The translations under genes were made by a program, and so were the position numbers. Of a DNA stretch of 64,000 nucleotides, positions 12,022 to 25,006 are shown piece after piece. The notes under the pieces were generated by a model. It was not told the origin of the DNA and ran no database searches. It saw only the letters and a program-made list of their open reading frames with translations. The stretch's first letter is position 1. Every line of letters starts with the position of its first letter. The DNA lies in assembly GCA_015499995.1 (NCBI GenBank), contig JADNRV010000005.1:310001-374000 (forward strand), given 5' to 3'. This stretch comes from Flammula alnicola. Taxonomy: Eukaryota > Basidiomycota > Agaricomycetes > Agaricales > Strophariaceae.

Positions 12022-15000
12022 TTAACTCTTGAAGTCATTTTCCGTGATATTACTTTGGTCGCAGAGCCCTCGGAAAAGTCCCTCGCTTTTCGAATATAAC
12101 GACAAAGGAGTGTCGAATTCCTGAAATTCACGAAGACGTGGGGGTAAGCGATTGAAGAAAGGGCGAAGGAAGAGTTTGTTTACTGACCAAAATGTTACCG
12201 CTGTCCAGTACCAAATACGGTCGTAAGATAAGATAGTTCTGAGGCGATCTACCGATTTTGCGCTCTGTGAATGAACCTTTTGTTTCACGGTATTTAAACT
12301 CACGGGCTATGCAAATCAAGGTCCTATCCTTGAATTCAGTCTGGATGGTTTGCTGGATTTTCTTGTCGGTCTCAAGGTCCACAGATGCACTGAGTGTAGA
12401 ATACTACATGTTGAGTAATAGTGCAAAGAGAATTATATCTCGACTCACGTAGCTTCGTCTAAAATGACGACCCTTGTATCCCTCACAAGAGCTCTAGCAA
12501 GACTTAACAATGACCGCTCTCCGACGCTCAAGTTTGAACCGTCAGATTCTAGCACAGTATCAAGTGTGATTCTTCCTGAAGCACTTTCAATCGCGGCGTC
12601 TTTTTCTTGTTCCGATGTCTCTTCAACGAGATGCGATCGCCGTAGTGCATCCCATAGGCGCGCATCATCATAAAGGGAAAACGGATCCAGAGCCGTCCTT
12701 ACGGTACCTTGTACGAGAAATTTGGTCAACGACCATATGTCTCGAGATACAACCAAAACACCTACCGCTAAAGATAGTTGGCTTCGGAGGGTTAAAATTT
12801 TAGAAGAAAGACAAGGTAGGTTTAAATGGTGCTTACGTCCTGGGGTATAATGCCGATGTTGGTGCGCAAGTCTTTTAATCCAATTTTGGAAATATCAACC
12901 CTGCGGCGATATTGACAGTAAGATTCGAAGTGGTCAATATAAAGATCGCACATACCCATCAATCGTGATAGAACCAGCATATTCTACAATTCGTAGAAGT
13001 GCCAAGGTTATCGAGGACTTTCCGGCGCCTGTTCGTCCCACAATTCCTATCTTTTCGCCTCCACGAATCGACATGGATATTCCATGAAGAACGTTTGGAA
13101 GACCAGGTCGATAACGCATCGAAAGATCCTTAAATTCGATGGCACCTTTGGCAGGCCATTCTGGAGGGGGCTTCCTGTCTGGGATTTCATGTGGGGCCTC
13201 CTGCTCTAAGATGTCGGACTGGCTGTACTGCACAACTAAGTGATAGTTACTAGACGTCAGCAAAGAAACAAAAAGGTGCTTGAGGTTAAAACTCACCCCG
13301 TTCGACGGAATTCAGATAGTTCTGCATCGAGAGATTAGATATTAGTTGCGAATGAGTTGGGAAGATATAGCTTACTTCTACTTCCGCGGTCTGCCTGGTA
13401 AGCATACCGCATGCTTGTGTCAGCGAAGCTGTTTTTTTTTGGTGTCTTAATGAGGACAAAACAAGACCATGCAGACGACTTACTTGTATATGTGAGACGA
13501 GACCAACTTGAGCAGCCGTGGTGCCTGAAACACCAAGTACAGCGAAGAGAGCAACCTGGATCTTGATAAGCATGATGGAAGGAATCAAGAGAGGATAACA
13601 CACGAAAAAAACCAACACCCCCCGCAGAAGTCAAGCCGATCGAAAGCCATCTATCCACGCGCACGTGAGAGAGATGCAACAAATACTGAAATCGAAGCCT
13701 ACCTTTGATTTGTCACAGTAAGGATTAGAGCACGTTTTCCAGGTCGATGTAGTATTCATTTTCCTTCAAGAACCGCGGAATTTCGCCGTAGGTTCGCAAT
13801 GTCGGTAACCTTCATTGGACACTCTTAGTTGGACGTTCCAGGAGTTGGAGGAATAAAGTACCAGTCAAGGATTCGGAAGATGTGAATACAACAAGGATCG
13901 CAACATTGCATCTGTAATAGAGTGATGCGCATATCAGAATTTGGAGCAAACTTATGACCGGAATTAAGATTGACCTAGACGCTTGATTTCTCTTGCGCTT
14001 GCTCGATAGAACGCAGCAAAATATTGATAACCTAGAGACACGAAGACTGCCACAACAACTAGAATTATCTGGGTTAAATATTGTTATGAAATCGATATAA
14101 GAAGTTCCTTACTGAAGTAATGTTCCACCACGGTGATAAGAATGACAGATCCTAGAACGTTTGAAACGGTCAAGACAACTGGAAGCTATGTTAGTAACGC
14201 TCATTAAGCAAGAAAAAATACCAACGCATTCGTAAAGAGACTAGGAAAGAGTGGCACGTCAGCATAGCCTTGACTGTGTATTAGCATCTGTAACATACCT
14301 GGTAGCTGATTATCGATATCTGAATTAAGATTGAAAGAGCTGTTACAGAAAGTATGGCAGATTCCTTACTGTCTATGTCCTTGCCAAAAACTCCGATAAT
14401 CCGACCCATTGGCTGTCGAAAAGTGTTCAGTGCATAGGCTGGATTGATAAGGGAGGCTCCTACGGTGGTGTCAAAGAGCGACATAGGCGCATGGAAAATG
14501 TTGAAAATCGCCTCATGATGCAAGTTTTGGGAGGCGAAAAATGAGAATATATCAGTGCAGAAGCCGCTGTTAAAAGTCGTCAAACGGCTTCCGAATGAAC
14601 CCACAGAAAACGTACGATAAAAAGGTGGCAAGAGCCTGAGAAACGCCCAGCCCAGCGTATAGCGATTGATAGAATGAGAAAGGTCGATGGAACGAACTGC
14701 ACACGAGCAGACCCACGATCAGACTCCCAATGGCGACAACAAAGCGTAAACACTGACTTTGCTTGCCACCACACCAAGGAATATGAACTAATGATCTGGC
14801 TTCCCTGCAACATCAAAATGGAGAAAACTAGGAGCGGAGCTGTGATAAATCCGCGCCCCGCAAGGAAATAGGCCTTGTAAACTGAAGCAGGATGAGTGAC
14901 AGCGGATATATGCACATAGTTTGACCAAGTTACCCTTTCCTGAGATGGAGCCAGTCGAACGATGCTCCTTCACGATCAACTTTCCTTCCAATTTCCCTGT

Positions 15001-22700: not shown

Positions 22701-25006
22701 ATGCCCACCGGATCTTCTCTTGGACCTCGCGAACATGCAAAGTTCGCAGTGATATCGCGCCTTATATCATGCCTCGTAACGGAACAGATACTTCGAGCTG
22801 TTTATATCCCTTTCGAAAGACCGATTCACGATGCCGCCGGGATCACCGTGGTTCTTTCTATTCATACCATCTCAGAAAGTGTAAATTTCTGTCGTCCCTT
22901 CAATTCCGACGATATATTCATCATCATACCTTTGCACCATCCGCCGGTTTTCAAGGACCATGAAATACGCGAACATGGACAGCTCGTTGGCCTCCTCGAT
23001 CCGTTGGATATGTTGCCCTATGCCTATGAATTCAGACAGGGAGCAGAGGTCGATGAACCTGTAAGTTTGAGTTTTTCTAACTTGGATAAGACTTACGTAT
23101 ACATATTAGAAGGACGACTTAACACAATCTATTCTCGACTGCCTCAAACCACCTCCTTGGGATATGACAACGCATGGAAGGCTGTTTCGTACATCAGATC
23201 CGGTGTCATTATGGCGCAAGCTGCTTGAAGGCCTTGTCATACCTGGGAATCTGCACGATGTCATCGCTCAAGAACTACAGAGCTCTCTGGACTGGCAAGG
23301 TTCGTCAGTAATTATAATCGCCAGCGTGAGGCTGAATAACTTACTAAAATTTGCTCTTCAGCCTTAGCTTACGAAAATCCGCCCTCATGCCCTACCTTAC
23401 ACTCTCCAGCCATAGAATGGGAGCAAAGCCTCGTTTCCGGTCATCCCACTCATCCAGTATGTAACATTTTTTAGTAGCGTGTTTATTATTTAACCGAAAA
23501 TTCGAAGATGCATCGCGCTAGAATGTTGCCTTCAAGTTCTTTCCCAGAGAATTCCATGGTGTACGACTGGTACCACCCCCGCATTCGTTTCGTGCGAGTT
23601 CCGAGATCCCAGCTAGACATCCTCGGGAGGTTCGAGGAAATAAGCAAAGACTTGACGACGAAAGCCTTCCAGCAGGCTGGGGAAACTCCACCTGGAGATG
23701 CTGGTTTTATCTACATGCCGGTCCACGAACTTCAAATCGGAAACATCTTGTCGAAATTCCAGAATATCGAAATTTTGGATTCAAAATTCTATCTTGCTGC
23801 ATTAGCTCAGTCGAGTATTCGGTGAGTTACCCACCCTCCCATTCCTTGATGATGCTCACTCGTTTTATGAAAGAACTGTGGTGGTCCCTGATTTTCCGGG
23901 GATAGCGCTGAAATTAGCTGTTGGCGTGAAAATATCATCTTCTCTCCGGACAATTTCACATTTCACTGCCAATTTTGGGCCTCGATTTTCCGAAGACGTC
24001 GTGCCCAAGTTGGCGGTAAATCCCAAGATTTTGGCCATTGAACTCGAGCCAACCAGCGCAGTATATCGCACATCCGACCCTGAAATCGCAAAACACTTTA
24101 CGGCGGTCATCAGAGAAGAGTACAAAACGTCCGATGGAGAAGCTCTTATTGTCGTTGCTGCTCTATTGGAAATGGACCATGCTGGTGTTCCGCCTGGTAT
24201 TTCTGCTGTGCAGCATGTATTTATGCTTGACACTGGAGAAAAAAGGGAGGCATTTCTGGATAAGTGCGTGCTTTTTTACGACCTTCTGCCCGACCCCGCA
24301 CTTGTTAATATATCACCTAGATATATCCAAGTCGCTTGCGAGGCCATGTTACCTGCCCTCATACATAATGGGGTCGCCTTTGAAGCACACGCCCAGAACG
24401 TACTCGCTCGCTTTGACGTTGCGACAGGAGAACTTCGCGGCTTCGTCCTCCGTGATCTCGGTGGTCTTCGTATCCACCCACCTACTCTACGCGCATCGAT
24501 CGGTGTGGACTTCCAGTTCCTTCCTGACCACTGTGTGGCGACGAACACATTGGAAGAGATTTTCCCGAAGTTCTATCATACGTTTGTCCACAACCACATC
24601 CAGCGTCTCATCAGGCTGCTTGGGCTCCATTACAATGGCCGTGGCTGGGAGATGCTCAGGAAACATATGGGGTCGGTGATTCCTGAAGATCATCCTGCCT
24701 GGAATGTCTGGATGAACCCAAAGAGCACCAGCGTCGACTCGAAATGCTTGATGCGCATGCGTATGAGGGATTCCTATCGCGATGTAAGTGATACGTTGAC
24801 ATTTGCGCTGTGAAATCACTCAATTCTAATCCGTTGAGTAGATGGTGTACAGCCCGTATCCGAACATGATCCAATATAGGCCGCAGCCTCAATCAGTTAC
24901 TGATAGGCGCAGATGGCTACGTCCGTGGAGTGGAGTGTGTGCCATGCTCGTCATTTGTAAGGAACTTATCTATGTGACCATCTCAAAGACATTCTTTCTC
25001 AATTAA
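22701..25006 (+). CDS. IucA/IucC-family NIS siderophore synthetase-like protein, copy 2
   Basis: Paralogue of the upstream gene, same strand. Exons: 22701-23060, 23110-23299, 23362-23456, 23508-23821, 23874-24263, 24321-24783 and 24842-25006, about 658 residues. Exons 2, 3, 4 and 6 have exactly the lengths of copy 1 (190, 95, 314 and 463 bp), which shows a tandem duplication with intron positions kept. Motifs: LISCLVTEQILRAVY, GHPTHP then MHRAR, MPVHELQIGN, SSLRTISHFTANFGPRF, HNGVAFEAHAQN, RDLGGLRIHPPTL and KCLMRMRM. The GVAFEAHAQN segment is closer to the usual family EAH.QN than the ECHPQN of copy 1. Protein divergence between copies is large, so they may act on different substrates or in consecutive steps of one siderophore, as paired NIS enzymes do in bacteria. 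The last exon may be shorter if a GTAAGG near 24955 is used. Confidence 0.9.

Follow-up and report, generated by a model that had tools for sequence, protein, structure and literature searches.

Nonribosomal peptide synthetases (NRPSs) produce mushroom siderophores such as basidioferrin, and NRPS-independent siderophore (NIS) synthetases adenylate a carboxylate and then join it to a nucleophile. The siderophores of mushrooms are usually credited to NRPSs, coprinoferrin being one example (PMC8874372). NIS gene clusters have also been described in mushrooms, in papers that are drawn on here in excerpt. Adjacent NIS pairs were reported in Hypholoma and Coprinopsis (PMC8874372), and clusters with two core genes in Agaricus and Pleurotus, with Lentinula having one core gene in each of two clusters (PMC11942895). 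The Physalacriaceae have arrangements termed NIS Clusters 1 and 2, of Type A', with Cluster 1 resembling the Agaricus cluster, and a cluster in which an ATP-binding cassette (ABC) transporter gene, an NIS gene, and a C2-domain gene stand together (Narh Mensah et al. 2023, PMC10700112). The Type A' assignment groups the Cluster 1 enzymes with FslA, LbtA, Rfs, SfaB, and SfaD (PMC10700112). This report concerns a locus of Flammula alnicola with two NIS synthetase genes, here NIS1 and NIS2, beside an ABC gene and a C2-domain gene. It lies in a 64-kb stretch of DNA (the window) from a contig of 980,585 bases in a genome totaling 74.4 Mb. F. alnicola is a member of the Agaricales living on wood.

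The initial annotation of the window considered the locus an unusual, possibly undescribed pathway. That description is not retained: adjacent pairs and the ABC–NIS–C2 cluster are in print (PMC8874372, PMC11942895, PMC10700112), and NIS proteins can be named from at least 110 species. The F. alnicola locus adds a further member to a kind of cluster that is already known. We consider it likely that F. alnicola has here its version of an NIS cluster conserved among mushrooms, one for a carboxylate siderophore with export by the ABC protein. Within that reading we infer the substrates, a single product for both enzymes, export, and control by iron.

Two paralogous NIS synthetase genes

The features of the locus, in positions of the window, are as follows.

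12022..18445, minus strand: ABCC transporter gene (YOR1/MRP-like), from protein-to-genome alignment over 12030-18445, Pfam, and the end of the last open frame
18446..19155, no strand: 710-base intergenic region separating the divergent ABC and NIS1 genes, covered by the GATA-site scan
19156..21377, plus strand: NIS1, IucA/IucC-type NIS synthetase, 7 exons, 633 amino acids, from gene model, Pfam, fold, and frame alignment
19156-19518, 19572-19761, 19815-19909, 19964-20277, 20336-20737, 20786-21248, 21303-21377, plus strand: NIS1 exons, hand-built spliced model
22162..22172, no strand: palindromic extended iron-GATA site TTATCAGATAA, in the NIS1–NIS2 gap, from the ATCWGATAA scan
22701..25006 (stop codon included), plus strand: NIS2, NIS synthetase paralogue, 7 exons, 658 amino acids, from gene model, Pfam, and orthologue fold
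22701-23060, 23110-23299, 23362-23456, 23508-23821, 23874-24263, 24321-24783, 24842-25006, plus strand: NIS2 exons, hand-built spliced model, end read from the sequence
25089..25097, plus strand: extended iron-GATA site ATCAGATAA, in the gap from NIS2 to the C2 gene, from the ATCWGATAA scan
25410..27488, plus strand: gene for a C2-domain protein that has a proline-rich tail, from PF00168, start and splice sites by eye

The initial annotation placed two intact IucA/IucC-type genes here, and the seven-exon models bear this out. Between NIS1 and NIS2, 268 of 620 aligned residues are the same (43%), and each gene is interrupted by six introns of 48-62 bases, all GT-AG, at matching positions; four inner exons have equal lengths in the two genes. 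The NIS1 model corresponds to the F. alnicola database protein P0003 from residue 1 (100% identity over 99%). The database model of NIS2 (P0002, 677 amino acids) retains the 57-base fifth intron as coding and otherwise agrees with ours; the retention occurs in none of the 11 other rows of a 12-row alignment. Frame- and splice-aware alignment with one relative each found no frame break in either gene. A search of the whole 74.4-Mb genome returned no PF04183 or PF06276 match beyond NIS1 and NIS2, and an Armillaria NIS protein matched this locus only, in seven pieces.

Domain content, predicted fold, and motifs support the identification of both proteins as NIS synthetases, with enzyme activity being predicted. 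Each has PF04183 (E 1.5e-29 in NIS1, 5.3e-24 in NIS2) followed by PF06276 (E 1.6e-11 and 1e-12). A Pfam search had been proposed with the initial annotation, with the failure of IucA/IucC profiles to match as a possible refutation; that objection falls away because both domains exceed their curated cut-offs in both proteins. A predicted NIS synthetase fold spans the whole chain, judged for NIS1 itself and for NIS2 through its Gymnopilus orthologue (P0016), and the fold matches 22 solved NIS entries, all with titles that name siderophore biosynthesis enzymes. At the sequence level, a search of the PDB with NIS1 alone gave no match and a 12-row NIS profile gave three.

The signature motifs described in the initial annotation were also found in both proteins by motif search. 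Counterparts of AcsD catalytic residues, assigned by motif and not by superposition, are E-x-H-x-Q-N at NIS1 476 and NIS2 471 (E442 and H444), a lysine at NIS1 596 and NIS2 591 (K563), and [TS]S-x-x-R-T at NIS1 343 and NIS2 341 (R305). The R305 match and the choice of K563 between two primer codons are presumptive, coming from our own reading and recall. Among the NIS homologues listed below, the regular expression for K563 was too narrow (63 of 90 NIS1 and 76 of 101 NIS2 proteins), and alignments were used instead. The pattern Q[QS]S[ILV]R shows the widest shortfall (84 of 90 NIS1, 58 of 101 NIS2), and the other motif patterns also miss some proteins. PMC3323832 supplied the AcsD residues and their local sequences, through its text and primers.

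Age of the pair and linkage across mushrooms

Searches with NIS1 and NIS2 gave the best 120 of 192 and the best 120 of 184 significant proteins, together 192 different ones. Assigned by the better BLASTP score, the matches listed comprise 90 NIS1 proteins, 101 NIS2 proteins, and one merged model of both from Amanita phalloides; Hysterangium is the only other near-tie. A tree of 55 of these proteins with three Nocardiopsis rows as outgroup has a single branch separating NIS1 (28 rows) from NIS2 (27 rows). Each side contains a Russulales group and an Agaricales group, with Hysterangium and Clathrus basal within NIS2. Because both orders occur on both sides, the duplication probably predates the Agaricales–Russulales divergence. 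NIS2 has an SH-aLRT (Shimodaira–Hasegawa-like approximate likelihood ratio test) value of 93, and NIS1 is without support as a rooted clade; the very long Nocardiopsis branches leave the root uncertain.

The Nocardiopsis proteins come from a scan of prokaryote genomes in which three of 71 pattern matches were confirmed, all from this genus. At 26-28% identity they are too distant for a bacterial source of the fungal genes to be assigned. Nocardiopsis chromatogenes has two adjacent, very different NIS-like genes (5260-7314 and 7311-9134 of the scanned stretch), the first being one of the three relatives, with 26% identity. Within the tree, NIS1 (P0033) and NIS2 (P0261) of Ceratobasidium sp. AG-I both group with the Lyophyllaceae. 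Ceratobasidium belongs to the Cantharellales, and the placement may reflect either transfer of the pair or assembly contamination (the contigs have 11,554 and 234,556 bases).

Shared contigs were judged from species name and identical contig size in database listings, not from assemblies, and the tally of 110 species excludes the merged Amanita phalloides model and 17 unnamed rows. Both enzymes occur in 60 of the 110 species among the matches listed, and in 48 of these 60 they lie on the same contig. Locus tags of NIS1 and NIS2 are consecutive in eight species: Agrocybe pediades, Leucoagaricus, Hohenbuehelia, Termitomyces Mi166, Sphagnurus, Tricholomella, Hericium, and Coprinopsis cinerea. The C2 gene appears to belong to the same arrangement. 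Six NIS2 entries among those listed are named "C2 domain-containing protein," and a merged NIS-C2 gene has been reported (PMC10700112); together they fit a conserved order of NIS2 then C2.

The search for ABC homologues gave the best 120 of 845 proteins, 117 of which were tabulated with species. ABC and NIS rows were both found in 39 species and share a contig in 33 of them, many of them Agaricales; ABC, NIS1, and NIS2 are all on one contig in 20 species. The tags of ABC and NIS1 are consecutive in Psilocybe cf. subviscida and Leucocoprinus leucothites. Linkage of the ABC gene in relatives was a check suggested with the initial annotation, and the sharing of one contig in 33 of 39 species among the matches listed answers the objection that no linkage is conserved. 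Eleven of these 39 species have two ABC paralogues among the matches listed; the NIS contig carries exactly one of the two in ten species and neither in Mycena maculata.

Armillaria nabsnona is represented by a protein (P0256, standing for a cluster of 30 sequences) of the NIS2 clade on a contig with a YOR1-like ABC gene. This is the only Physalacriaceae NIS protein by name among the matches listed, with none in the named NIS1 rows. The Armillaria NIS Cluster 1 may have lost the first enzyme.

The ABC gene, possible iron control, and neighboring genes

The initial annotation described a full-length YOR1-like exporter. A YOR1-like ABCC gene with the expected domains, oriented divergently to NIS1, is indeed present, but an intact full-length frame is not: in this assembly the frame is broken at seven places when compared with each of two relatives, from Pholiota and Psilocybe (1419 and 1413 residues, 79-80% identity, 39 introns). 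The gene has about 40 exons, with PF00664 and PF00005 in its first half and PF00005 in a piece of the second, and the alignment covers the relatives nearly end to end, giving homology over two transmembrane domain–nucleotide-binding domain units (TMD-NBD-TMD-NBD). Breaks, counted with a purpose-written frame- and splice-aware protein-to-genome alignment, fall near 17.3 kb (one), between 13.4 and 13.9 kb (five), and near 12.2 kb (one). The F. alnicola database protein, of 1005 amino acids against about 1420 in close relatives, ends just ahead of the group of five. The aligned part has no in-frame stop, and the stretch occurs once in the genome. In relative-rate tests, 18 comparisons gave two values above 3.84 (3.86 and 6.25), and in each of these it was the Flammula protein that had changed less. 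Because in-frame stops are absent and protein evolution is no faster, we lean toward sequence error or a very recent break.

These breaks bear on whether the ABC gene belongs to the pathway. It could be a bystander, a general drug pump linked through inherited synteny and a recent pseudogene in this strain. Along with the breaks themselves, the occurrence of the YOR1-like family in 65 species without NIS among the matches listed (although some, such as Armillaria, are known to have NIS) and the six of 39 species with the ABC gene off the NIS contig would agree with this. The lack of in-frame stops and of faster protein evolution, the crowding of five of the seven breaks within 0.4 kb, and the tracking of the NIS contig by exactly one of two paralogues in ten of 11 species among those listed argue against it, and we regard the bystander explanation as doubtful.

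Iron-GATA sites were part of the initial annotation, and their presence in the promoter shared by ABC and NIS1 had to be rejected: the 710 bases contain no HGATAR (2.29 expected) and no ATCWGATAA. The latter is the SreA consensus, which the Ustilago sid1 site fits (PMC2610380). Its only occurrences in the window are 22162-22172, a palindrome with two overlapping hits, and 25089-25097, so that the extended sites flank NIS2 instead, one upstream and one downstream. Three hits on both strands are not unusual alone, since 20 of 100 shuffles reach three, and the NIS1–NIS2 gap has four HGATAR against 4.21 expected. The pattern, noticed after the fact, is suggestive of iron-GATA control for NIS2 only. 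Genome-wide, there are 123 copies of the palindrome TTATCWGATAA and 16 of a reversed control pattern.

Like the broken ABC frame and the promoter without GATA sites, several further points weigh against a conserved siderophore cluster. The main Armillaria biosynthesis proteins escaped detection in both the proteome and the secretome, whether iron was present or not, according to the excerpt of PMC12973365, and chrome azurol S (CAS) activity of Armillaria was independent of added iron (PMC10700112). The open-licence literature searched yielded no product, substrate, or iron response for a mushroom NIS enzyme. A counterpart of the AcsD substrate residue R501 could not be placed by motif in NIS1 or NIS2. 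Among the matches listed, the two enzymes are on different contigs in 12 of the 60 species, and locus tags on the same contig can be 11 (Amanita polypyramis) or 46 (Volvariella) apart. NIS1 only is found in 22 of the 110 species and NIS2 only in 28; part of this reflects the extent of the listing, because Pleurotus ostreatus has one enzyme among the matches listed against two core genes in print (PMC11942895).

In Armillaria, siderophore production was independent of added iron (PMC10700112) and the NIS proteins went undetected in an iron proteome (PMC12973365), which raises the further prospect that the locus makes a carboxylate amide for something other than iron uptake, such as binding another metal, reducing iron in wood decay, or defense, with the ABC protein exporting it. 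No iron uptake gene was recognized among the neighbor pieces scanned, and methylolanthanin, in a paper that mentions NIS synthetases, is a non-iron metallophore (PMC11317620). We consider this quite improbable, given that the titles of the 22 matching solved entries all concern siderophores, that the two extended iron-GATA sites flank NIS2, and that the name of one ABC orthologue comes from a siderophore-cluster gene.

In the C2 gene, PF00168 (E 6.9e-11) is the sole Pfam match at E <= 0.001, with no transporter domain found at that threshold. Three further features were recognized by a scan of open-frame pieces.

9100-10984, minus strand: DEAD-box helicase pieces, past the ABC gene on its 3' side
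29006-29515, plus strand: GH5-like piece, just below cut-off
34997-35404, minus strand: zinc-type dehydrogenase piece

No Frag/DRAM/Sfk1, methyltransferase, or P450 gene was recognized in the ten open-frame pieces scanned, a scan that intron-split genes can escape.

Elsewhere in the genome, no convincing SidA or siderophore NRPS was found by a six-frame search, which is weak for intron-rich genes and was run without a mushroom control. PF13434 matches on contigs C113 and C248 were rejected as SidA, with C113 reading as a pyridine nucleotide-disulphide oxidoreductase, and weaker matches on C247 and C501 resemble a flavin monooxygenase by eye. PF00668 matches on C24 and C267 were likewise rejected as a siderophore NRPS; C24 has a partial condensation domain then AMP-binding, a protein we take to be of Lys2 type. 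Because the contig pairs C113/C248, C24/C267, and C247/C501 have equal match scores and common open frames, the 74-Mb assembly may retain both haplotypes in places. The NIS locus, unlike these paired contigs, is present once.

A proposed pathway and comparison with known systems

Under the likely reading as a conserved siderophore cluster, each NIS synthetase would use ATP to adenylate a carboxylate, with citrate as the default, and would join it to an amine through an amide bond. NIS1 and NIS2 together would yield a small carboxylate siderophore without an NRPS, and the ABC protein would export it. By analogy with staphyloferrin A, the two enzymes would form two different bonds of an unsymmetrical product, the likeliest division of labor. 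Rhizoferrin is made by one synthetase and staphyloferrin A probably by two, its amino acid being unsymmetrical (PMC7857480). The two-synthetase pattern fits better because two paralogues are retained together with intact active sites.

One enzyme might instead be enough. NIS1 would then make a symmetrical, rhizoferrin-type dicitryl-diamine like Rhizopus Rfs, with NIS2 a spare or side-activity copy. A single NIS synthetase makes rhizoferrin in Rhizopus and Ralstonia (PMC7857480), Cluster 1 enzymes have been placed with Rfs (PMC10700112), and 22 of 110 species have NIS1 only among the matches listed. Among NCBIfam models, that of the rhizoferrin synthetase FslA also scores highest on NIS1 and on the NIS2 orthologue of Gymnopilus, although far below its cut-off (65 and 49 bits, respectively, against 1000). 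A dispensable spare fits poorly with catalytic motifs kept in both paralogues across orders, and with their retention, mostly adjacent, since before the Agaricales–Russulales split; Armillaria nabsnona, moreover, has an NIS2-clade protein only among the matches listed. We judge the single-enzyme explanation unlikely.

A bolder extension of the two-enzyme proposal, offered tentatively, is a two-enzyme pathway inherited by many Agaricales and Russulales. NIS1 and NIS2 would work one after the other on two different bonds of an unsymmetrical, non-rhizoferrin metallophore, based on citrate or another carboxylate and exported by the linked ABCC protein, with Armillaria and its relatives having kept the second enzyme only and making a different product. 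If true, basidiomycetes would have a class of siderophore with a chemistry not yet described. With enzymes of an NRPS-free route named from at least 110 species and old paralogues mostly together, a second class of mushroom iron chelator may have escaped notice. The analysis also bears on the suggestion of similar products from Armillaria and Agaricus Cluster 1 (PMC10700112), as the Armillaria protein among the matches listed corresponds to one of the two enzymes of Agaricus.

More distant systems share single elements with the locus. Fer6 of Ustilago maydis, like the Flammula ABC gene, is an MRP-type gene in a siderophore cluster, and the Psilocybe cubensis orthologue is named after it. Unlike the Flammula gene, Fer6 belongs to the NRPS cluster for ferrichrome A, and its function was uncharacterized according to an excerpt of PMC5561558 (2017). 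Staphyloferrin A uses two NIS synthetases, SfaD and SfaB, for one product (PMC7857480). Rfs of Rhizopus delemar is a fungal NIS synthetase with the same two-domain architecture (PMC10700112) and alone suffices for rhizoferrin (PMC7857480), whereas Flammula has two paralogues; Rfs and the staphyloferrin A enzymes were compared by description only.

Closer are the Physalacriaceae and the relatives of Flammula. NIS Cluster 1 likewise has an ABC transporter, an IucA/IucC gene, and a C2-domain gene together. In Armillaria, a single NIS gene per cluster has been described (PMC10700112), whereas Flammula has both NIS1 and NIS2. For the Physalacriaceae there are also reports of duplicated ABC genes along with a methyltransferase, Frag/DRAM/Sfk1, and P450 (PMC10700112), where Flammula shows one ABC gene. 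The closest match is the pair of Hypholoma sublateritium and Coprinopsis cinerea, two adjacent IucA/IucC core genes with PF04183 and PF06276, of which Stropharia rugosoannulata has a split form (PMC8874372). The two Hypholoma proteins pair one to one with NIS1 (72%) and NIS2 (70%). The excerpt of PMC8874372 does not treat the ancient paralogue clades or the ABC gene, the frame of which is broken in Flammula. New here, relative to these descriptions, are the probable age of the paralogues before the split of the two orders, the tallies of contig sharing, and the paralogue-specific linkage of the ABC gene among the matches listed.

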